Of a stretch of DNA of 64,000 nucleotides, positions 15,023 through 25,363 are shown in pieces (the stretch's first letter is position 1; each line of letters starts with the position of its first letter). The stretch comes from Cyanobium sp. Cruz-8D1 (GTDB lineage Bacteria > Cyanobacteriota > Cyanobacteriia > PCC-6307 > Cyanobiaceae): the NCBI RefSeq assembly GCF_024345975.1, contig NZ_JAGQCD010000020.1:1-64000 (forward strand). The letters are read 5' to 3'. Under the pieces are notes generated by a model, which was not told the DNA's origin, did not search any database, and saw nothing but the letters and a program-made list of their open reading frames with translations. A program made the position numbers and the translations under genes.

Positions 15023-15778
15023 TTGCAGCCTATTATCCCAACAAATCAGAAAGAGCGTATAGACAAACGAATTGTCCTGGTGGCCAATCTTCCGTGTTCG
15101 GCGGGGACCTATCTCTTTCACTACGTCGCTAAAGCGCTGGACGCTAACGCCTGGCACACCGGTGAAACCAACCCCTACTCTTACAACCCACCAGCCACAT
15201 ACGTCCCGGAGGATCCCCTGCATCGGGTTCGAGCTCTGGAGTTGTTTTCCAGACAAGAGGCGTTTAAGGAATACTCAAGACGACTTGAGTTGCTCGTCGA
15301 CACCTTCCTCACCAACGACGCCGCCTCGGTCTTGATGATCCGCGACCACAACTTTGGTGAGGGCTGGAGATTCCGCCATTTCCCTGATAGCTCAGCCACT
15401 CCAGCTCTGGTTGAGATTCTGGACAGCCGTCAGATTCCCCACACCTGCTGCTACACCCATCGCGACCCGTTCGACACCTGGCTGGCCATGCGCCGCTCCT
15501 TCTCCTCGATGGCGAAAGCGTTCAAGCGCCTGGATGACTACGCCGACTTCTCTTTCAATAGCTGGCTGGCCTGGAAGAACCACAGCCATCCACTCAACGA
15601 CCTTCACATGCAGACACTCGGCTTGCATGAGCAGCGGGAGAAAGATCGGATCCGCTCATCTGTTCTTGGAGCGCCACCCCTTCACCACAGAGGTCTTTCG
15701 CGAAGCCGTGCACTCACCGTCACGGCACAGATGGCGCCTTCAGCAGGGAGTCTCTTCATGGCACTTGATAGCTTCTGA
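15023..15778 (+). CDS. Sulfotransferase-like protein, probably frameshifted near its end
   Basis: The 251-residue frame starts at TTG 15023. RIVLVANLPCSAGTYLFHY sits where a PAPS loop would be, and CYTHRDPFDTWLAMRRSF near residue 147 resembles the 3'-phosphate motif (R-x-P-x-D-T). Identity as a sulfotransferase is therefore likely but distant. After about residue 215 the frame turns into Arg/Ser-rich low-quality sequence, while the +1 frame reads FLERHPFTTEVFREAV, which looks more protein-like. I infer a frameshift near 15650. It sits in a small AT-richer patch after rpsD, next to another broken gene. Confidence 0.5.
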   Translation: MQPIIPTNQKERIDKRIVLVANLPCSAGTYLFHYVAKALDANAWHTGETNPYSYNPPATYVPEDPLHRVRALELFSRQEAFKEYSRRLELLVDTFLTNDAASVLMIRDHNFGEGWRFRHFPDSSATPALVEILDSRQIPHTCCYTHRDPFDTWLAMRRSFSSMAKAFKRLDDYADFSFNSWLAWKNHSHPLNDLHMQTLGLHEQREKDRIRSSVLGAPPLHHRGLSRSRALTVTAQMAPSAGSLFMALDSF

Positions 15779-15799: not shown

Positions 15800-16561
15800 A
15801 TGAGCGAAGCCTTCATGGATCACTTCGGCTCCGTCTCGGCGGCCTACGCCCACTTCCGCCCCACCTACCCGCCGCCCCTGTTCGACTAGCTGGCCGCGGT
15901 AGCCCCCGCCCGACAACGGGCCTGGGACTGCGCCACCGGCACGGGCCAGGCCGGCGTGGCCCTGGCCGCCCACTTCAGCGAGGTGGTGGCCTCCGATGCC
16001 AGCGCCGCCCAGCTCGAGGCCGCCAGCCCCCACCCCCGCGTGCACTACCGACTGGCGGCGGCGGAGGGCTCCGGACTGGAAGCGGACAGCATCGATCTGG
16101 TCACGGTGGCCCAGGCCCTGCACTGGTTCGATCGGCCCCGCTTCTTCGCGGAAGTGGCGCGGGTGCTGCGACCCGGAGGCGTTCTGGCCGTCTGGAGCTA
16201 CGGCCTCCCCCACCTGGCAGGGGAGGCGGCCGACGCCCTGCTGCAGCACTTCTATGCCGACATCGTCGGTCCCTACTGGCCTGCCGAGAAAGCCCTGGTG
16301 GACAACGGCTACCGCGACCTGGTGCTGCCCGGCGCGAACCTGGCGGCCCCGTCGTTCGCCATGGAAACCGTCTGGAGCCTGGAGCAACTGCTCGGCTACG
16401 GCTCCAGCTGGTCGGCCAGTGCCCGGTACCGCGCCGCCCTGGGCAGCGACCCCATCGACTGGCTCCGTCCAGCCCTGGCCGCCGTCTGGGGGGAGGCGCA
16501 GACGCCACGGCGCCTTCACTGGCCGCTGACGATCAAGGCGTCGCGACTGGGATCGCCCTAG
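15800..16561 (+). pseudogene. SAM-dependent class I methyltransferase, interrupted by an amber codon
   Basis: From ATG 15800 the frame reads MSEAFMDHFGSVSAAYAHFR...PPLFD, then TAG at 15887-15889 (codon 30). It then continues unbroken to 16561 with WDCATGTGQAGVALA (SAM-binding motif I), VTVAQALHWFDRPRFFAEVARVLRPGGVLAVW and a C-terminal part typical of the UbiE/Methyltransf_11 group. In relatives this position is usually Trp, so one TGG-to-TAG change explains the stop. Full length would be 253 residues. No good start follows the stop before motif I. The 3' end overlaps the V-ATPase A gene on the other strand by 29 bases. Confidence 0.8.
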
Positions 16562-18380
16562 GGGCTCCGGAGAGGGCCTGGATCTGCTGCAGATAGCTCT
16601 TGTAGGTGGGCGAACCGGAGGCGGCGTAATTCAGGTTCCGGTACAGACCCGTGAGTTGGGTGTAATAATCCCTGGCGGCCGTCTTGTCGGCGAAGGTGTG
16701 GTCACGGTGCAGCAGATCGAAGACCAGATCAAAGGAGGTCTTCTGCCGTTCCAGGGGGGTGGTGGAGTCGACGGCATCAAAGGCATCCTGCTGCAGATAC
16801 ACCATGTCCAGAAACAGAGCCTTCTGGAACACGAGGAAGTCCTCCATGCTGACGCCTTCCTCGCCGGTCACCTGAATCATCTGGCCGACCCGATCGCCCT
16901 GCTTGAGCAACCCATTCATCTGGGCGACGCGTCCCACCCACTCCGGTGAAAGGTGCTGGGAGAACCAACCCTCGAGCTGCTGGAAATAGCGCGTCCAGGA
17001 GAGCAGGATGTCGACGGCTGGATAGAAGCGCTTGTAGGCCCGCTCCGCACTCAGCCCCAGGAAAGCCTTGACGGTGCCCAGGGTGCATTGGGTGACCGGC
17101 TCTTCGAAATTGCCCCCCGCCGGCGACACCGTACCGATCATGGTGAGACTGCCAACGGAGCCGTCGTTGGTGCGGATGATGCCGGCCCGCTCATAGACGC
17201 TCTTGATCGAGGAATCGAGATAAGCGGGAAACGCCTCTTCACCCGGAATCTCCTCCAGCCGGCCGGAGGTTTCCCGCATCGCCTGGGCCCAGCGGGAGGT
17301 GGAGTCGGCAATCAGAAGCACGTTGTATCCCATCTGGCGGTAATACTCACCCAGGGTGAGACCGGTGTAGATGGAGGCCTCCCTGGCCGCCACCGGCATC
17401 GAGGAGGTGTTGCAGATGATGATGGTGCGATCCATCAGCGATCCGCCGGTCTTCGGGTCAGAAAGCTTGGGGAATTCGGTGATGGTTTCGACCACTTCCC
17501 CCGCCCGCTCCCCGCAGGCCACCACCAGCACGATGTCCACATCGGAGTGGCGCGAGATCAGGTTCTGGAGCACGGTCTTGCCGGCGCCGAAGGGCCCCGG
17601 AATGCAGCCGGTACCACCACGGGCGATGGGCAGAAAGGTGTCGATGATCCGCTGGGTGGTGATCATCGGCTCCTGTGGATAGAGGCGCTCGCAGCGGTTT
17701 GCTTCCAGCAGTGCCTGGGGAAGGGCGCGACGCACCGGCCACTGCTGCGTCAGCGTGAGCGAGCGGGTGGCGCCGCTGCCATCACGGATCCGGGCCACGG
17801 CGGTGTCGATGGTGAAACTTCCCTGCTGAATCCAGTCAAGGGTGGTCACCCCCTGCTGATCAAAGGGAACCATGATCTTGTGGGTGAAGCGACCCTCCTG
17901 GACGGTGCCGATCACATCCCCAGCATGGAGGGTGTCACCGATCTTGGCCCTGGACTGAAACGACCACTTCTTCTCCGTATCCAGGGGCGACACATCGGCA
18001 CCACGGGGAAGAAACGTGCCATAGCCCGCGGCCAGCTGGGCCAGGGGATTCTGCAGTCCGTCATAGACCTGACTCAGCAGGCCAGGGCCGAGAGTGACAG
18101 AGAGTTGCTCGCCCGTCTGCTCAACCGGATCGCCGATGCCGACACCCTTGGTGCTTTCGAAGACCTGGGCATCGGCCAGCCTGCCACGCACCCGCAGCAC
18201 CTCGGCTTTCAGCTTTTCCTGGCGATCTCCACTACGGCGCTGCAGACAGATATAGATCACTTCATTCTTGAGCAGAGGCCGAGGCTTGCGCTCCGCCATC
18301 TGGATCGTGACAAGATCATCCTGCACAGCAACAACGCTGGCGGGATGGAACTCAGACAGGGACTCAATGCTGCTGTTCAT
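16533..18380 (-). CDS. ntpA: V/A-type ATPase catalytic subunit A
   Basis: The 615-residue product carries the Walker A loop GPFGAGKTV (residues 262-270), the A-type non-homologous insert before it (about 115-200), and ADSTSRWAQAMRE, characteristic of rotary ATPase A subunits. With B it forms the cytosolic A3B3 head that hydrolyses or makes ATP. It is last in the operon B-D-I-K-E-DUF2764-A. Its ATG overlaps the DUF2764 stop by 4 bases. Size is like the bacterial (chlamydial/spirochaetal) V-ATPase A subunits. Its 3' end overlaps the convergent methyltransferase pseudogene. Confidence 0.95.
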   Translation of the reverse strand: MNSSIESLSEFHPASVVAVQDDLVTIQMAERKPRPLLKNEVIYICLQRRSGDRQEKLKAEVLRVRGRLADAQVFESTKGVGIGDPVEQTGEQLSVTLGPGLLSQVYDGLQNPLAQLAAGYGTFLPRGADVSPLDTEKKWSFQSRAKIGDTLHAGDVIGTVQEGRFTHKIMVPFDQQGVTTLDWIQQGSFTIDTAVARIRDGSGATRSLTLTQQWPVRRALPQALLEANRCERLYPQEPMITTQRIIDTFLPIARGGTGCIPGPFGAGKTVLQNLISRHSDVDIVLVVACGERAGEVVETITEFPKLSDPKTGGSLMDRTIIICNTSSMPVAAREASIYTGLTLGEYYRQMGYNVLLIADSTSRWAQAMRETSGRLEEIPGEEAFPAYLDSSIKSVYERAGIIRTNDGSVGSLTMIGTVSPAGGNFEEPVTQCTLGTVKAFLGLSAERAYKRFYPAVDILLSWTRYFQQLEGWFSQHLSPEWVGRVAQMNGLLKQGDRVGQMIQVTGEEGVSMEDFLVFQKALFLDMVYLQQDAFDAVDSTTPLERQKTSFDLVFDLLHRDHTFADKTAARDYYTQLTGLYRNLNYAASGSPTYKSYLQQIQALSGAPRAIPVATP

Positions 18381-19060
18381 TGAGCTACACCCGAAAAGAG
18401 TTCTCTGTGATTGGCGAGGCCCGCATCCACGAGCTCTCGAAAACGTGCGACGGCCGTCTCACCTTTGTAGCATGACCAACGGCTGACCAGACTCCAGCGC
18501 GCCAGATAAATGATCAGCGCCTCGAAATCAAACGCATGGCCGGCTCCAAGGCGATTCAACATCGTCCAGACGACGGAGAACTGCAATTTCTCGAAGCCGA
18601 TCAGGTCATCCTCCTCCAGTAGGTCGTGAGCCTGCCTGACCCAAGGAAAGATCACGTCCAGCTTGAACGTCGGCGCACTCCAGTTGCGCTCGATCAAGCC
18701 CACCCACTCGCCGAATCCCCAGACCTCACCGTCGGGGGGCTGGGCTTCCCCTCGACGCCGCCGGCGAAACGCCGCCACGACCGTGCGCATGTCCAGACGC
18801 TGCGTCACCAGACGGCGCAGGGTGGGGTTGCGGTTGGACGCCAAGAAGCGATGGGCCTCAACAAGGAAGGCCGCATCGGTGCGCTCCAATGGCTGTGACG
18901 GCCAGGCGATCAGATTGGCAATCTGCTCGAGCGTGTGCCGATCGCTGGACTCCAGCAGACCCAGTCGGCTTTCCAGCTTGAGCCTGGAGATCGGCGGCGT
19001 CGCCGCTTCAAACAGCGACCCGAGGGGCGGCAGGCTGGCCATCAGCACGACGTATTTCAT
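18377..19060 (-). CDS. DUF2764 protein, V-ATPase operon (subunit C-like)
   Basis: The 227-residue product starts MKYVVLMASLPPLGSLFEAATPPIS, matching the short conserved start of DUF2764 proteins, which sit between subunits E and A in chlamydial, spirochaetal and Bacteroidetes V-ATPase operons. The rest is mainly helical, fitting the role of a central-stalk connector analogous to subunit C (inferred from position, not from direct homology I can see). It starts 7 bases after E and overlaps A by 4 bases. A clear DUF2764 call identifies which kind of V-ATPase operon this is. Confidence 0.82.
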   Translation of the reverse strand: MKYVVLMASLPPLGSLFEAATPPISRLKLESRLGLLESSDRHTLEQIANLIAWPSQPLERTDAAFLVEAHRFLASNRNPTLRRLVTQRLDMRTVVAAFRRRRRGEAQPPDGEVWGFGEWVGLIERNWSAPTFKLDVIFPWVRQAHDLLEEDDLIGFEKLQFSVVWTMLNRLGAGHAFDFEALIIYLARWSLVSRWSCYKGETAVARFRELVDAGLANHRELFSGVAQ

Positions 19061-19067
19061 GGGGCGC

Positions 19068-19769
19068 TCACTTCACCACCCCCTCCAGCAGGGCGCGGAA
19101 CCGCGGTTGCAGGTGGGCCAGCAGGGATTGGGCGATCGCCGCATCCGTGAGGTCGAGCACCACATCACGGTCCACCAGCCGCAGCTTCAACCCGGCCTCG
19201 GGGCCCTTCGAGACACCGAAGCTGACCCCTTGCCGCAGCAGGCCCCGGGCGGTGAGGCGCACGAAGCGGCTGAGGATGCCCTGCTCCAGCTCCTCCGGGT
19301 GCTGGCTGAGCTCGGCCAGGCCGACCACCCGCCGTGGCAGCAGCACCTCCACCTGCTGCGACTGGTCGGCCTCCGGACGCAGCGTGCCGACGATCTCCAG
19401 GATCATCCGCTCCAGAATTTCCTGCTTTTGCTGTTCTTCGCCAACGAGCTGGCGCACCTCACCGGTGAAGCGATCGCTGAGCTGGGCCTTGAGGGCCAGG
19501 TTGGCATCGCGGAAGGCCAGTTCCAGGGCCTGCTGCCCGGAGGTCTGGAGCGTTTCGGCCTCCTTCCTGGCCCGATCGACGATCTGCCTGGCCTGCTCCT
19601 CGGCTTCGGCGAGCAGGGCCGCCGCCTTCGCCTGGGCCTGGTGCAGCAGGCCCTCGGCCTCGGCGCGGCCCTTTTCGACGCCCTGATCGCGCAGGCGTGC
19701 AATCAAATCCTCCACACCGGAGGCCACCGCCAGGGGAGTGTCGTGCCGGAGCTTCTTCGGGTTGGCCAT
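19068..19769 (-). CDS. ntpE: V/A-type ATPase subunit E (peripheral stalk)
   Basis: ATG 19769 gives 233 residues. The N-terminal half (about 20-110) is a long charged Ala/Glu/Gln-rich helix (KGRAEAEGLLHQAQAKAAAL...), as in the coiled-coil of E; the C-terminal half is a globular domain. It would be a stator part holding the A3B3 head to subunit I. A longer frame to 19919 would run over the end of the K gene and is rejected. The gap from K is 82 bases, the only real gap in the operon, and could hold an internal promoter. Confidence 0.88.
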   Translation of the reverse strand: MANPKKLRHDTPLAVASGVEDLIARLRDQGVEKGRAEAEGLLHQAQAKAAALLAEAEEQARQIVDRARKEAETLQTSGQQALELAFRDANLALKAQLSDRFTGEVRQLVGEEQQKQEILERMILEIVGTLRPEADQSQQVEVLLPRRVVGLAELSQHPEELEQGILSRFVRLTARGLLRQGVSFGVSKGPEAGLKLRLVDRDVVLDLTDAAIAQSLLAHLQPRFRALLEGVVK

Positions 19770-19851
19770 GGGATCTGCCCGGCTGGGGAGGAACGACGGA
19801 AAAGAAGTGACGAAGGCAGGCGCCGGAGGCGTGGGAGCGCTGCAGGGAGCC

Positions 19852-20304
19852 CTACTTAGGGATCCCCCCGGCCGCCACCAGGGCAAACACGAAGGCAAAC
19901 ACGGCGAAACCCTCCACAATCGCGGCCGGCGCCAGGGAAAGGCCGAAAATCTCGGGCTTGGCCTTGGATCCGGAAATGGCGGAGGCGCAGCACAACCCCT
20001 GGTAGATCGCCGCCATCAGAAAGGCCAGACCCGAGAGCAGGCCGATGCCGAAGAGCCCGCCGGAATTCTCCGGAGTCACCGGTCGGTTGAGGATGAACAT
20101 CACGACGATGCCGTAGATCGACATCGACGAGGGCAGCGCGGACAGGCCGACGAAGCGTCCATAGCCACTGTTGACCTCCATCATGGCGCCGATCGCCGCC
20201 TGACCCGCCGTGGTGCAGCCGATGGAGGCGCCGATCGCCCCCAACGCCACCGGCGCATAGATACCGATCCAGCCAAGGACCAAAACAGATGTGTCGTTGC
20301 TCAC
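19852..20304 (-). CDS. ntpK: V/A-type ATPase proteolipid subunit K (two-hairpin c-ring)
   Basis: The 150-residue product has four membrane helices, that is, two fused hairpins. The carboxylate for ion binding is Glu131 (AAIVEGFAVFAF) in helix 4. Gln102 (AAIYQGL) corresponds to Gln110 of the Enterococcus hirae Na+ ring. The first hairpin reads LPSSMSIYG (residues 57-65), where E. hirae has LPGTQGLYG: Thr64 is Ser60 and the Na+ ligand Gln65 is Met61. Loss of that ligand suggests protons rather than sodium are carried (inference). ATG overlaps the I stop by 4 bases. Confidence 0.93.
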   Translation of the reverse strand: MSNDTSVLVLGWIGIYAPVALGAIGASIGCTTAGQAAIGAMMEVNSGYGRFVGLSALPSSMSIYGIVVMFILNRPVTPENSGGLFGIGLLSGLAFLMAAIYQGLCCASAISGSKAKPEIFGLSLAPAAIVEGFAVFAFVFALVAAGGIPK

Positions 20305-22109
20305 AATGCCGTCTCCTTTTTGCTGAAGGGTGCGAAGGGATAGCCTTCCTCGTTGAGGCTCCAGTTGAAAAACTCGATGAAGTTGAGCCGCAGGCCGTGG
20401 ACAAATCCGCTGATGATGGCCAGCAACAGATTAATGCCATGACCCAGGATCAGGATCAGCAGCGAAATGACCACCGCAAGGGGCACATCGGAGCGGTAAA
20501 CTTCGCCGGCCAACTGATTGAAGGTCAGGGCCAGAGAGGCACTGGCCAAGCCTAGGGCAAACAGTCGCAAGTAACTCATCACATCGCCAAAAAGTTTGGA
20601 GAGTTCAGCCAGTGAGGCAAGCCCATCGAACAGTCGCAACAGCAGGGAACCGAGCGAATCGAGGCGACGCTCGCTGCTCAGCAGCAGGATGGTGAGCAGC
20701 CCGCCGCTGCCGAGGCCTAGGCCCAGATCACGGCCTGCCGCAGTACCAGCACCGAGGTAGAGGCTGAGGCCCGCGAGAAGGATCGCGATCCAGCCGATCG
20801 GCTTGGCGCGATCGGCGAGCGTCACACCGCGCAGCGCCACGACCCCATTGGCCAGGATCAGATGCAGGGCACCCACCACCAGCGAGAGCTTCATCATTCC
20901 CTCGAAATCATCCAGATTCAGGACCTGAAGATGGGCCAGCACGGATCCACTCGGGGGGGGAGCACCGAAATAACTCCCGGCCAGCATCCCGTAGAGGAGC
21001 GAGAACAGCAGACCGACCGCCGCCAGGACGCGGAACCGGCGCGAGGACGGCCTGGTTCCCATCCCTTTCCAGAACAATGCCAGCAGCGCCCCCAGCACCA
21101 GGGCATAGCCGGCATCCGCCAGGATCATGGCGAAAAAGATGGCGAAGGAAAAGAACACCACGACCGAGGGATCCCAATCGCGATAGCCCGGTGTCTCATA
21201 GAACGTCACCAGATCTGCACCACCCGCCAGCACATCCGGATTCGTCATCAAGGTGGGAGGGGTGTCGTCTGAGGCGGGACTCTCGGCCCACGACGCCAGC
21301 CCCATGCGCTCGACAAAGGACGTGAGCTTGGGAAGATCCTGACGCGGCATCCAGCCCTGCACCTGAAAGACGCGGCCACGATCAGCCGTTTTATCGCCGG
21401 CCTGCCTCAGGGCCACCTGCTCATCGGCACGGATCAGGTGCTTCGAGAGCAGAAAGATCCAGCGGCTGAGGGCTTCGTGCTCCGCCTCGCAGTCATCGCG
21501 TTCGACATGGGCCTGGTCCAGCTCGGCCCTGAGATCCTCCGGAGACTCGGAACCCACGTGGGCACGCTCGACCGGCAGCAGGTTCTGGTCCGGTTCCTGC
21601 TCGGCGATCAGCACCACATAGGCATGCCTGGGGCTGGCATGGATCTGCTGCCACGGCAGTGCCAGCCCTGCAAGCGCCTGCTGGAAGGGCTCAAACTTGG
21701 GATGGGCAACCCGGTAGAACCAAAGGCGCTGGCCGCCCAGCTCCCCCAGATCAGGCAGCCGGAAGTTCCCCCACGGAGCCAGTTCAGCAAGATGGTGGCG
21801 GAGCGTGAGGATCCTGTCCTCGGCAGCCCGCTTGCGAGCCCGGTTCGCCAGTGTCTTGGCCACCACGGCCTCGAGCTGGAACGTGGGATCGACCTTCAAT
21901 TGATAGCGGCGATGGCGCACATCCATCAGATAGCGCAAGGCCTCGCGGGCCTCGACAGCCGGCTGGGGAGCGCTGAAATCAGCAGGGCCATCCTGGGCTC
22001 CCAGATCAATCAGATGCAGACACCCAAGGGCCTGCAGTCCTTCCAGCACAGCCTGCTTCTCCGCAGCAAGACCGAAGATCGAGACTTTGGCGAGCGCGAT
22101 GATCGTCAT
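20301..22109 (-). CDS. ntpI: V/A-type ATPase subunit I (membrane stator, a-subunit)
   Basis: The 602-residue product has the two-part layout of subunit I/a. The first 300 or so residues are cytosolic with helical coiled parts (ELGGQRLWFYRVAHPKFEPFQQAL). A C-terminal half with about seven or eight membrane helices follows, from VVFFSFAIFFAMILADAGYAL onward. SLFGDVMSYLRLFALGLASASL and GHGINLLLAIISGFVHGLRLNFIEFF are classic signatures. It supplies the ion half-channels beside the K ring. Its ATG overlaps the D stop by 4 bases and its stop overlaps K by 4. Confidence 0.95.
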   Translation of the reverse strand: MTIIALAKVSIFGLAAEKQAVLEGLQALGCLHLIDLGAQDGPADFSAPQPAVEAREALRYLMDVRHRRYQLKVDPTFQLEAVVAKTLANRARKRAAEDRILTLRHHLAELAPWGNFRLPDLGELGGQRLWFYRVAHPKFEPFQQALAGLALPWQQIHASPRHAYVVLIAEQEPDQNLLPVERAHVGSESPEDLRAELDQAHVERDDCEAEHEALSRWIFLLSKHLIRADEQVALRQAGDKTADRGRVFQVQGWMPRQDLPKLTSFVERMGLASWAESPASDDTPPTLMTNPDVLAGGADLVTFYETPGYRDWDPSVVVFFSFAIFFAMILADAGYALVLGALLALFWKGMGTRPSSRRFRVLAAVGLLFSLLYGMLAGSYFGAPPPSGSVLAHLQVLNLDDFEGMMKLSLVVGALHLILANGVVALRGVTLADRAKPIGWIAILLAGLSLYLGAGTAAGRDLGLGLGSGGLLTILLLSSERRLDSLGSLLLRLFDGLASLAELSKLFGDVMSYLRLFALGLASASLALTFNQLAGEVYRSDVPLAVVISLLILILGHGINLLLAIISGFVHGLRLNFIEFFNWSLNEEGYPFAPFSKKETAL

Positions 22110-22708
22110 AGCACCTGGTGCTCCTTCTTGCGTTTGGCAATCTTGGAATTGACTACACCAGCCCGTTCCGCATCGGCCAGATAGATGGAGATTTTGCGAA
22201 TGTTCTGCCTGGCTCTTGGAATCAGAACCTTGTCAAACAAGTTATAGCGTTGTGTCACGATCCGCTCGGCCTGTTCAAGCTGTTCCACGCGGCGCCTGGC
22301 CACCTGGATGCGAATCGACTGCTCCATGGCCTGCTGGAGCACAACCACCAGGGCGTCGACCCAGAACGGTTTGGTGAGCACGCCATAGGGGATGACCCGG
22401 AACGCGAGACTCTGAAGCACCGGCAGCCGGGTGCCCATCAGATTCTCTTCGCCGATCTCCAGGCTGGAAACGGCCACAAGATCTGTCAGATCGATCGATT
22501 TGTTGGCGACCATCGGCAACCTGACCGCCACATCCGGCTCGATCGCCGCCGCCTTCTCGATGGCCTCGGCCAGCAGCCGGCGGGCCTTCTCGCGTGCGGC
22601 ACCGATCTGGCGGCGCTTCATGTCCAGCGATGGCAGGACATCCTGAAAGGTCCGCAGCAGGGACTTCTCCTTCGTCAGGGAGGCCTTGGTGAGCGAGAGC
22701 CTGGCCAT
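22106..22708 (-). CDS. ntpD: V/A-type ATPase subunit D (central rotor)
   Basis: The 200-residue product has the D/gamma-like pattern of long N- and C-terminal helices: MARLSLTKASLTKEKSLLRTFQDVLPSLDMKRRQI at the start and EQLEQAERIVTQRYNLFDKVLIPRARQNIRKI near the end. These would form the coiled rotor shaft inside the A3B3 head. It starts 5 bases after B and overlaps I by 4 bases. No separate subunit F gene is present; chlamydial-type operons also lack one. Confidence 0.92.
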   Translation of the reverse strand: MARLSLTKASLTKEKSLLRTFQDVLPSLDMKRRQIGAAREKARRLLAEAIEKAAAIEPDVAVRLPMVANKSIDLTDLVAVSSLEIGEENLMGTRLPVLQSLAFRVIPYGVLTKPFWVDALVVVLQQAMEQSIRIQVARRRVEQLEQAERIVTQRYNLFDKVLIPRARQNIRKISIYLADAERAGVVNSKIAKRKKEHQVL

Positions 22709-22713
22709 GGGAA

Positions 22714-24078
22714 CTACGCGGAGGGAAGGCGAAGTGGCGTGTCGCCAGGGAAGTACTTATCGAGCAGCTCCTGCTTCATCAGCAGCTCACTGGCCTGGAA
22801 GCATTCGGCCAGGGTTTTCCAGGCCAGATCCAGCGCGTCCTCTAGGGAGATATCCACATTGATGTCCATGAATCTGGCTTTGAACAGTCCACCAAATTTG
22901 ATCAGGCGCTGGTCGTAATCGGACAGTTCGAAGGCCATGGCCTGCTTCTGCTCCGCATCCCGCGCACCGGAGTAGAGGCGGATGCAGGTGTTCATGATCT
23001 GGTTATGGTCCTCACGGGTGACCTTGCCGATCACGTTCTGCTTGAGGCGGGACAGGGAACCGAAAGGATCAATGACCCCATCGTGCAGATAGAACTGTCC
23101 TTCCGTGATGTAACCCGTGTTATCCGGCACGGGATGGGTGATGTCGTCCCCAGGCATGGTGGTGACCGTAAGCAGCGTCACCGAGCCACCCTTGGCGTAA
23201 TCGGCGGCCTTTTCATAGCGGCGGGCCAGCTGGGAATAGAGATCGCCTGGATAACCGCGGTTGGCAGGCACCTGATCCATGGCGATGCTGATTTCCTTGA
23301 GGGCATCGGCAAACGAGGTCATGTCCGTGAGCAACACCAGCACCCGCTTGCCCTCCTCCACGGCGAACCGCTCGGCCACCGCCAAGGCCATGTCCGGAAT
23401 CAGCAAGCGCTCCACGATCGGATCGGAGGCCAGGTTCACGAACATCACGGTGCGTGCGAAAACACCGGCATCTTCGAAGGTCTTGCGAAACGCGTAGTAG
23501 TCGTCAAAGATCAGCCCCAGCCCCCCGAAGACGACCACATCGGCATCGGCCTGAATCCCAATGCGGGCCAGGAAGGCGTTGAAGGGCTCGCCCGAGACCG
23601 AAAAGATCGGGATCTTCTGGCTCTCCACCAGACAGTTGAACACGTCGATCATCGGCACGTTCGTGCGGATCATCTTGGAGGCCAGAATGCGGCACATCGG
23701 ATTGACGGAAGGCCCTCCGATCGGAATCTTTGGATCCTCCCCAAGGCCTGGGCCACCATCAATCGGTTCACCCGTGCCTCGAAACACCCGACCCAGAATG
23801 TTGTTGGAGTAGGTGGCCTCCATCGGGTGGCCAAGAAAATGCACGGCAGAATCGGTAGCCACCCCCTTGGTGCCTCGAAACACCTGCAACGACACGGAAT
23901 CCTGCTTCAGGGCAATCACCTGCGCCAGGGAAGAAGTGCCATTGCGGTTCTGCACGACCGCCAGATCGTTGAACCGTGGTGCCGCCTCCCTCTGGCTGGC
24001 ATCGGCGGGGACCTCAACCCGGAGAATGTCGCCGACGATTTCGAGAATCTTCGAATAACTGACCAGGGACGCAGGCAT
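22714..24078 (-). CDS. ntpB: V/A-type ATPase regulatory subunit B
   Basis: The 454-residue product is a typical non-catalytic B subunit: no P-loop, but VFRGTGEPIDGG, SGEPFNAFLARIGIQ (in place of Walker A) and VLVLLTDMTSFADALKEIS, then RRGYPGDLYSQLA-like NRGYPGDLYSQLARRYE. It alternates with A in the head. It is first in the operon, downstream of a leader with 16-bp repeats (24128-24171). In the usual chlamydial order B follows A; here A is at the far end, so the order is rotated. Confidence 0.95.
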   Translation of the reverse strand: MPASLVSYSKILEIVGDILRVEVPADASQREAAPRFNDLAVVQNRNGTSSLAQVIALKQDSVSLQVFRGTKGVATDSAVHFLGHPMEATYSNNILGRVFRGTGEPIDGGPGLGEDPKIPIGGPSVNPMCRILASKMIRTNVPMIDVFNCLVESQKIPIFSVSGEPFNAFLARIGIQADADVVVFGGLGLIFDDYYAFRKTFEDAGVFARTVMFVNLASDPIVERLLIPDMALAVAERFAVEEGKRVLVLLTDMTSFADALKEISIAMDQVPANRGYPGDLYSQLARRYEKAADYAKGGSVTLLTVTTMPGDDITHPVPDNTGYITEGQFYLHDGVIDPFGSLSRLKQNVIGKVTREDHNQIMNTCIRLYSGARDAEQKQAMAFELSDYDQRLIKFGGLFKARFMDINVDISLEDALDLAWKTLAECFQASELLMKQELLDKYFPGDTPLRLPSA

Positions 24079-24127
24079 GGGAAGGGCGATCAGAGGATCA
24101 GGACCGGTGCCGAAGGGATGGCAGAAC

Positions 24128-24171
24128 CTGCTGAGGGGAGAAGCTGCTGAGGGGAGAAGCTGCTGAGGGGA
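24128..24171. repeat. Three tandem 16-bp repeats upstream of the V-ATPase operon
   Basis: CTGCTGAGGGGAGAAG occurs at 24128-24143 and 24144-24159, with a 12-base third copy at 24160-24171. The array lies 50-93 bases upstream of the B-subunit ATG, in the divergent promoter region shared with the PPK2 gene. It could be a protein-binding array or a leader structure. Confidence 0.75.
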
Positions 24172-24460
24172 ATTGTCGCGAAGCCAGGCTGTCCTCCCCT
24201 GCCATTGTAATCAAAGACAGAGGAACGTCCATGTTCATAAGTTTTCTGACATGCTGGCCCTCACCAGAGGCTGTGGCTAAAATAGGCTCAATGTTTTGTC
24301 GAGCCAGCTCTCTTTTTCTCGCAATCGATTGGCAGCTTGGCGCCCTCTGATCCACGGCATTCAGCCAAGTCAGGTTGCCTCGTTTTACGAATGATGCTGA
24401 TGGCCCCAGTAGCCGCAGGGCGCCGACCTATCAGTGGAAGATCTTCAAGGGGCAAGGCGC

Positions 24461-25363
24461 GTGGACAAGAAAGACTTCCTGGAGCGGGCCAGAAGTTTCT
24501 CCAAACCCTTCCGGATTGAGGATGGAGACGGTTTTCAACTGAAGGATTATGACCCTGACGACACACTGCATCTCGACAAAAAGGACAAGGACCGGGCCCA
24601 GGAAGCCCTGACGATGGGGGTGCAGATGCTGGCGGACTTCCAGGGTCTGCTCTATGCCCAGGATCGCTACGCCCTGCTGCTGATCTTCCAGGCGATGGAT
24701 GCAGCCGGCAAGGACGGCACCATCAAGCATGTGATGAGTGGCGTCAATCCCCAGGGATGCCAGGTGAGCTCATTCAAAGCGCCCTCCTCGGTGGATCTGG
24801 ACCATGATTTTCTCTGGCGATCCAACAATGCCCTGCCGGAAAGGGGGCGGATCGGCATCTTCAACCGCAGCTATTACGAAGAAACCTTGGTGGTTCGAGT
24901 GCATCCCGAGATGCTGGCCAGGCAAACACTTCCGCCCGAGCGCCTCACGAAGGGCATCTGGAAAGAGCGCTTTCGCGACATCAGAAACTACGAAGAGTAT
25001 CTGAGTAACAATGGGATCATCATCCGAAAGTTCTTTCTGAACGTCTCCAAGAAGGAGCAGCGCAAGCGCTTTCTCGCCCGCCTTGACCGTCCGGAAAAGA
25101 ACTGGAAGTTTTCTGCCAACGACATCAAGGAACGCGCCTTCTGGGATGACTACATGGACGCCTACACCGCAACCATCCGGCACACCTCCAGCCGCCATGC
25201 CCCCTGGTATGTGGTGCCGGCTGACAACAAGTGGTTCACCCGCATGGCCGTGGCGGCCGCCATCATCGAAACGCTGGATTCCCTGCACCTCCACTATCCA
25301 GAGGTCAGCCCGGACGCCCGCGCCCAACTCGATGCCGCCAGGGCCCTGCTGGAGAAGGAGTAG
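24461..25363 (+). CDS. ppk2: Polyphosphate kinase 2 family protein
   Basis: The 300-residue product has the PPK2 Walker A region [19 protein letters not shown] (about residues 77-95) and Walker [14 protein letters not shown] (about 129-141), followed by lid-like [16 protein letters not shown]. It transfers phosphate between polyphosphate and nucleotides in the cytosol, class not resolved by eye. GTG 24461 was chosen because AAGGGG stands 8 bases before it and [10 protein letters not shown] fits; GTG 24434 is an in-frame alternative with no ribosome site. It reads divergently from the V-ATPase operon across about 380 bases. Confidence 0.9.

Follow-up and report, generated by a model that had tools for sequence, protein, structure and literature searches.

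The closest described relatives of the system studied here are the V-type ATPases of picocyanobacteria, whose existence is already published. Synechococcus WH 5701 was listed with both ATPase types in 2008 (PMC2359735), and in 2020 a V-type ATPase, called enigmatic, was reported in Black Sea strains and four other named strains, its closest organisms lying in filamentous cyanobacteria, Methylococcaceae, and Rhodospirillaceae (PMC7434838). A role without oxygen was suggested in 2022 (PMC8955281), and a study of the same year counted the enzyme by habitat (PMC9361551). Synechococcus WH5701, BO8801, and PCC7336, Cyanobium PCC7001, and Black Sea BSS (sub-cluster 5.2) thus carry the same enzyme type beside the F-type; the available portions of these four accounts give no gene order, assignment of the protein DUF2764, or mechanism. 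For Margulisbacteria the order atpEXABDIK was described in 2019 as resembling that of spirochaetes and chlamydiae, in the portion of the paper available (PMC6349859). Here, we analyze a 64,000-nucleotide stretch of Cyanobium sp. Cruz-8D1 (contig NZ_JAGQCD010000020.1, positions 1 to 64,000), referred to as the window, in which seven intact open reading frames (ORFs) on the minus strand, from 24078 to 16533, form a V/A-type ATPase operon of the order B-D-I-K-E-X-A, where X is DUF2764 (Table 1). A search of titles and abstract starts found no description of this order, nor of the rotated operon in Ruegeria.

The gene set of the seven-gene group, A, B, D, E, I, and K with DUF2764, is complete in the window, and its order is a rotation of the E-X-A-B-D-I-K order of that group, both as originally predicted from the DNA letters. 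Subunits A and B exceed the curated cut-offs of their NCBIfam models, and D, I, and K exceed those of Pfam. For subunit E, the best NCBIfam match is to subunit E, though weak; its gene position fits, there is no Pfam match at E ≤ 0.001, and the likely start is an ATG, the ORF listing having begun further upstream at a TTG. The P-loop is present in A and absent from B, and the Arg of the YLRLFALG motif of subunit I is, we assume, the essential one. A decayed operon was rejected, the ORFs being of full length. Three of the six junctions are 4-base overlaps (D/I, I/K, and DUF2764/A), the others being gaps of 5 (B/D), 7 (E/DUF2764), and 82 bases (K/E). For subunit F of the Thermus, Enterococcus, and archaeal kind, the genome was searched with PF01990 and gave nothing at E ≤ 1; the search produced matches in 11 of 14 control genomes (above the cut-off in 6) and none in the seven-gene-type Bacteroides control. 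With no subunit F recognized in the genome, the enzyme would be of a reduced kind. No gene for the second stalk subunit G is present in the operon, a short coiled coil elsewhere not having been sought, and the genome has no PF01992 match for subunit C.

The host, whose genome comprises 3.97 Mb in 108 contigs and is 100% complete, is Cyanobium-like: the B protein shares 96% identity with that of Cyanobium sp. N5-Cardenillas. The genome also encodes an F-type alpha subunit (833.9 bits to TIGR00962) and beta subunit (818.5 bits to TIGR01039). Outside the V/A operon there is, in addition, a third ATP-synt_C place; the V/A operon is therefore a second rotary ATPase beside the F-type, as had been expected. 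The F-type genes rule out the V/A enzyme as the only ATP synthase of the genome. A second, N-type F-ATPase was likewise rejected, all four PF00006 places being accounted for by alpha and beta of the F-type and by A and B of the operon. The best explanation of the whole, in which we place moderate confidence, is that these genes specify a complete V/A-type rotary ATPase of seven subunits working beside the F-type ATP synthase, with DUF2764 as a shortened subunit C/d and H+ as the probable transported ion.

To place the gene order, genomes were scored as positive at E ≤ 1e-120 to NF002555, and up to 20 kilobases (kb) around B in each positive genome were mapped for the seven genes by profile searches. 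Positives numbered 20 of 400 genomes in a sample of the family (4 of 59 genera) and 11 of 388 in a sample of the class, the window's genome being included in both. Within the genus the distribution is patchy, with the operon in 8 of 42 genomes (the negatives include G382 and G391, judged from the family-sample search that gave every match). The order is B-D-I-K-E-X-A in 18 of the 20 family loci, the other two ending at contig ends within I, and in five of the nine positive class-sample loci outside the family. The remaining four comprise one locus cut short; G636, with the canonical E-X-A-B-D-I-K; G042, with the canonical order except that K is inverted and upstream and E is in two pieces; and G490, in which B stands alone in 20 kb and D alone elsewhere. 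The two G490 genes, each alone in its 20-kb stretch (L069 and L187), lie about 1.4 megabases apart. G697 has the rotated order with 2.7 kb inserted before A; between DUF2764 and A there lie a 404-amino acid (aa) IS605-type TnpB-like ORF and a GNAT-like ORF (L063 2675-4641).

A scan of public genomes extended the survey, the best 80 of 570 confirmed stretches being taken. These come mostly from Ruegeria, Roseibium, purple sulfur bacteria, Methylococcales, and Oceanospirillales-type genera, with a few Gemmatimonadota, Planctomycetota, and Magnetococcales and four cyanobacteria; three of the loci (L072, L073, and L075) were taken as genomes G012, G008, and G088 and are counted once wherever distinct genomes are given. 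Among these best 80, 63 are plainly B-D-I-K-E-X-A, mostly in Alpha- and Gammaproteobacteria. Three more, outside the 63, read BDIEKXA (two) or BIDKEXA (one); these readings, and doubled K ORFs, were put down to shadow or over-long ORFs by their length, with start sites unchecked. Ten end at contig ends (seven as BDI, two as BD, and L074), L076 (a metagenome-assembled genome, or MAG, of an Escarpia endosymbiont) is without A within 5.6 kb after DUF2764, L100 has B by itself, its remaining six genes standing together on a contig of equal length, B is inverted in L122, and L103, a Magnetococcales MAG, reads D-I-K-E-X-A-B. Ruegeria, Roseibium, Methylomonas, Marichromatium, Marinobacterium, and others thus have the same seven genes in the same order as the window, and the B proteins of the alpha- and gammaproteobacterial rotated operons are mostly 70 to 77% identical to that of the window. 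In Planctomycetota, 13 of 199 genomes were positive, one being the genome of public locus L129; the other 12 loci include seven of E-X-A-B-D-I-K, one of the same order cut short, three of B-D-I-K-E-X-A, and one with broken frames and no recognized D. The rotated order is therefore the usual one for a clade of mostly proteobacterial V/A operons and not a cyanobacterial oddity. The original prediction had called it the cyanobacterial order; it is indeed common among cyanobacterial loci, which by that prediction's own reckoning told against its being special, and the canonical order is found in cyanobacteria too (G636, and G042 with K displaced). The survey answers the question of gene order: the order is ordinary for its lineage.

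A tree of joined A and B proteins (IQ-TREE, LG+G4) was built from 82 of 101 loci after 19 near-duplicates were dropped; a locus was excluded if its A had at most 540 aa or its B at most 430 aa, and the root was placed by hand on L186. All rotated operons form one clade, supported at 99.7 by the Shimodaira–Hasegawa-like approximate likelihood ratio test (SH-aLRT) and 100 by ultrafast bootstrap (UFBoot), within which the 23 rotated cyanobacterial operons tested form a single nested clade (99.7/100). Nearest to the latter is the Magnetococcales MAG L103, with weak support (75.2/92), and the two lie inside a 41-tip node (99.5/100) whose other tips, as far as printed, are gamma- and alphaproteobacterial; deeper nodes inside the rotated clade are weak (UFBoot 45 to 47). 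The canonical cyanobacterial pair, G042 and G636, stands outside and adjoins the rotated clade (rotated clade plus pair, 98.4/100), and cyanobacteria accordingly host at least two V/A lineages. Because the cyanobacterial operons are nested in the rotated clade, the window's order was most likely inherited with the genes from a wider bacterial lineage. The tree further suggests that cyanobacteria acquired the rotated lineage once, by horizontal transfer, with the order probably already rotated. The first reading, a rearrangement particular to cyanobacteria, has on its side that all rotated cyanobacterial operons tested make up a single clade, but the nesting of that clade among proteobacterial and other operons of the same order leaves it very improbable indeed.

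The same cyclic order extends to V/A operons of other kinds. From 17 plasmid records with a match, nine were examined. Conventional operons on Enterococcus gallinarum, Peptoclostridium, and Pusillibacter plasmids read I-K-E-C-F-A-B-D with a small gene before I, and that of Rubrobacter reads D-(small gene)-I-K-E-C-F-A-B; "C" is annotated as subunit C in one of these records only, the others, including Rubrobacter, having "V-type ATPase subunit." These share the cyclic order of the window, with C at the place of DUF2764. They differ in that C is longer, that subunit F and a small additional gene ahead of I are present, and that the ring is cut elsewhere. Bacteroides and Parabacteroides (in which K is annotated only as hypothetical) read E-DUF2764-A-B-D-I-K. 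These operons and the canonical ones of Planctomycetota have the same gene set as the window, including DUF2764, but are cut between K and E, whereas the window is cut between A and B, and they belong to a separate clade. The alphaproteobacterium Qingshengfaniella has B-D-I-K-?-?-A on a plasmid typed as mobilizable. Together with the order of L103, these are four cuts of one cyclic gene order, and the chance that a random seven-gene order is a rotation of a given ring is 7/5040. In the ring orders, DUF2764 holds the place of C, between E and (F)A. The Streptomyces fungicidicus plasmid, with C-I-K-?-?-A-B-D, is an exception to the ring rule, and a Pseudonocardia plasmid has F-A-B only. Alphaproteobacterial plasmids with V/A genes, among them those of Qingshengfaniella (L229, rotated and mobilizable) and Tateyamaria, are possible vehicles of transfer.

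DUF2764 is shown as unknown in PMC10197588, which in its available portion notes the low subunit number in Bacteroides. Structural models, gene position, and weak sequence similarity lead us to regard it as probably a shortened subunit C/d. An AlphaFold model of the window protein (51 sequences; predicted local distance difference test, pLDDT, 92) was compared with solved structures, and the best five rows were V/A-ATPase chains with Z of 8.5 to 11.0, the next row, at 5.5, being unrelated. A model of a planctomycete member 31% identical to it (46 sequences; pLDDT 89) had V/A-ATPase chains in its best eight rows (Z 8.7 to 10.8), followed at 4.8 by an unrelated chain. The V/A chains matched by both models are from Thermus, yeast, human, and cattle and align over 194 to 201 residues at 4.0 to 4.5 Å; 1v9m and 1r5z are named subunit C, and the other matched chains were taken as C or d from chain length and letter. 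Among aligned DUF2764 proteins, 50 of 51 match PF10962 at E ≤ 1, the window's at 1.5e-4. In a profile comparison with five subunit C sequences, canonical DUF2764 scored 87.6% (E 3.5e-6) and all DUF2764 38%, where control pairs scored below 1% and canonical against rotated DUF2764 scored 99.7%. A search of eight genomes with PF01992, the subunit C family, returned a single match, at E 0.003, inside the DUF2764 gene of G636.

Several results weigh against the assignment. Foldseek gave no match at E ≤ 0.001 for either model, the best being 0.38 to an unrelated chain for the window model and 0.34 to Thermus 8ywt_M for the second, and helical folds may reach Z 13 by chance. The PF01992 search at E ≤ 1 also produced a match in the control E. 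coli, so a weak match counts for little; only 2 of 51 rotated DUF2764 members touch PF01992, and weakly (best E 0.045, barely above noise). The profile of rotated DUF2764 alone scored 2.2% against subunit C, and a search of PDB sequences with the DUF2764 profile found none at E ≤ 10. An unrelated assembly factor or inhibitor of the enzyme would suit this faint similarity, the nonsignificant Foldseek results, and a length of 227 aa against 312 to 350 for C/d chains. We nevertheless think it improbable, as two independent models match C/d only, the gene occupies the place of C in the ring, and in seven of the eight genomes searched PF01992 is not found elsewhere, the lone weak match being inside a DUF2764 gene. 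Subunit C/d remains the favored identity; neither it nor the scar and polyphosphate kinase 2 (PPK2) link described below was found in our literature search, although the DUF2764 assignment may be in print.

The transported ion was considered from subunit K, which aligns with NtpK of Enterococcus hirae over both hairpins (2bl2) and has one Glu (E131) per four helices. We take L61, T64, Q65, Q110, and E139 to be the Na+ ligands of NtpK; their counterparts in the window are L57, S60, M61, Q102, and E131. Q65 is also given as a Na+ ligand in the available portion of PMC2359735. The E. hirae-type Na+ V-ATPase has the full ligand set in K, whereas the window K lacks it through Met61 in place of Gln65. 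All 18 distinct family genomes that have a K gene carry Met at this place, as do four of the five further rotated cyanobacterial loci from the class sample, the fifth (G452) having Gln; the public cyanobacterial locus L074 has Asn. Most other public loci, in contrast, keep Gln (44 of 66), as do all eight canonical Planctomycetota loci with K. From these residues we predict that H+ rather than Na+ is transported, and an ATP-driven H+ pump is the likely role of the enzyme. What weighs against this prediction is that Leu, Gln, and Glu of the E. hirae site are retained and Thr gives way to the similar Ser, which accounts for four of the five ligands; Tyr is present as well, and one lost ligand need not abolish Na+ binding, as a Na+ pump for salt tolerance like that of E. 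hirae would have it. Such a pump is nonetheless unlikely, given the uniform Met of the family where Gln is widely kept elsewhere and given the habitats in the available portion of PMC9361551, which places the enzyme in 9 of 67 freshwater, 5 of 17 brackish, and no marine strains.

A different use, ATP synthesis in darkness or anoxia from a gradient built by fermentation or hydrogenase, has been suggested for Black Sea strains, in which lactate dehydrogenase or hydrogenase genes lie near or beside the enzyme genes according to the available portions of PMC8955281 and PMC7434838. No lactate dehydrogenase or hydrogenase is among the 10 neighbor proteins tested in the window. V-type rings with one carboxylate per four helices move few ions for each ATP and so are better fitted to raising a steep gradient than to ATP synthesis; with one carboxylate per four-helix K protomer, few ions would pass per ATP, a poor arrangement for synthesis at low gradients. 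We rate synthesis as unlikely, slightly less probable than the Na+ pump, and retain the H+ pump.

The operon is accompanied in the window by a divergent PPK2 gene, and the two form a dispensable block of about 8.8 kb in the genus. Twelve congener sites were fetched. In four operon-free congeners (G003, G025, G009, and G014) the site is empty, a methyltransferase gene being followed by trpC within 17 to 54 bases; in the window, operon and PPK2 lie between the same two genes. As to the other eight sites, G018, G023, and G028 have other genes, G002 has a PPK2 remnant, and G020, G027, G030, and G036 are not informative or have no methyltransferase match in the stretch. Beside trpC in G018 is a scar (L215 5249-5584) in which a 75-base piece of A (81% identical, E 1e-13) is directly joined to the 3′ part of PPK2 (273 columns, 80%, E 2e-62). 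This junction indicates that G018 once had the block and that an internal deletion of about 8.3 kb removed it. By eye, the genes before trpC in G018, G023, and G028 (L215, L216, and L218) resemble a membrane-fusion protein and two ABC exporter proteins, with a TetR-type regulator-like gene also in G018 and G023.

PPK2 is found near the operon in 11 of the 20 family loci, always on the opposite strand: upstream, divergent, and adjoining B in seven loci of genus g1; downstream and convergent within 10 to 28 bases in G002, G133, and G245; and 2.8 kb upstream in G158. In G002, the intact operon, with another PPK2, lies on a different contig from the remnant. Within the genus, PPK2 occurs in all eight operon-bearing genomes and in 19 of 42 overall (hypergeometric 6e-4, with linked genes and related genomes). 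We treat this association as a lead only; it is weakened by the absence of PPK2 near the operon in nine of the 20 family loci (genera g53 and g46), some of which have little flank. Unlike the window, the public rotated loci of proteobacterial type have no adjoining PPK2, the exceptions being L083 and L103, with PPK2-related ORFs within about 6 kb of the operon at L083 2952-4532 (Woeseiaceae MAG) and L103 14789-15691 (Magnetococcales).

The function of the enzyme in the cell is inferred. ATP hydrolysis in the A/B head would turn D, DUF2764, and the K ring, with DUF2764 as the socket between the shaft D and the ring, and H+ rather than Na+ would move through I and K. Most speculatively, the pump may be used when photosynthesis does not energize the membrane, as in the dark, at low oxygen, or during an acid or osmotic shift, and the linked PPK2 may supply nucleotide from polyphosphate. 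One proposal would join all these strands: that the ring E-C-(F)-A-B-D-(G)-I-K was opened at four or more places and rotated either through a tandem duplication followed by loss or, during transfer, by way of a circular intermediate, that DUF2764 supplies the absent subunit C in an enzyme reduced to seven subunits, and that the picocyanobacterial enzyme travels with PPK2 as a polyphosphate-fuelled proton pump energizing membranes without light. This proposal is offered tentatively and is unlikely to be right as a whole.

Beyond the operon, the methyltransferase gene (window 15800-16561, plus strand) has an in-frame TAG at 15886-15888, where Trp stands in the full-length methyltransferase of G026 (L052 13503-14264, 253 aa); the stop codon marks either a pseudogene or an error in sequencing. 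A 251-aa ORF at 15023-15778 (plus strand) resembles a truncated sulfotransferase by eye, with no Pfam match at E ≤ 0.001; pieces related to it are at the same place in G028 and G036. An Rfam search of window positions 10000-31000 found two tRNAs only.

Table 1. Genes and intergenic space of the V/A-ATPase block in the window, with the evidence for each
Feature	Coordinates	Strand	Evidence
V/A-ATPase subunit B, first gene, 454 aa	22714..24078	-	NF002555 721.6 bits (cut-off 431); Pfam ATP-synt_ab
Subunit D, central shaft, 200 aa	22106..22708	-	PF01813 97.7 bits; NF002565 182.4 bits, slightly below cut-off 189
Subunit I, membrane stator, 602 aa	20301..22109	-	PF01496 61.7 bits; YLRLFALG at residue 513
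Subunit K, two-hairpin proteolipid, 150 aa, GTG start	19852..20304	-	PF00137; NF007200 184.3 bits (cut-off 108); alignment to 2bl2
Subunit E, peripheral stalk, 233 aa from ATG 19769	19068..19769	-	NF002424 69.4 bits, below cut-off 241; position
DUF2764 protein, proposed shortened subunit C/d, 227 aa	18377..19060	-	PF10962 E 1.5e-4, 21.9 bits, below Pfam cut-off 24.1; AlphaFold model
Catalytic subunit A, last gene, 615 aa	16533..18380	-	NF003220 759.4 bits (cut-off 470); P-loop GPFGAGKT at residue 262
PPK2, 309 aa, divergent neighbor in the same 8.8-kb block	24434..25363	+	PF03976 217.5 bits
355-base space between divergent B and PPK2, presumed to hold both promoters	24079..24433	.	Read directly

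Three things from this locus deserve to be kept: the proposed identity of DUF2764, the several cuts of one gene ring, and the genomic block together with its scar and the accompanying PPK2. The survey yields a testable identity for DUF2764, and if that protein does prove to be subunit C, V/A-ATPases of this reduced kind would not lack part of their shaft. With close relatives showing empty sites and a scar, the block is a means of learning the purpose of the pump.

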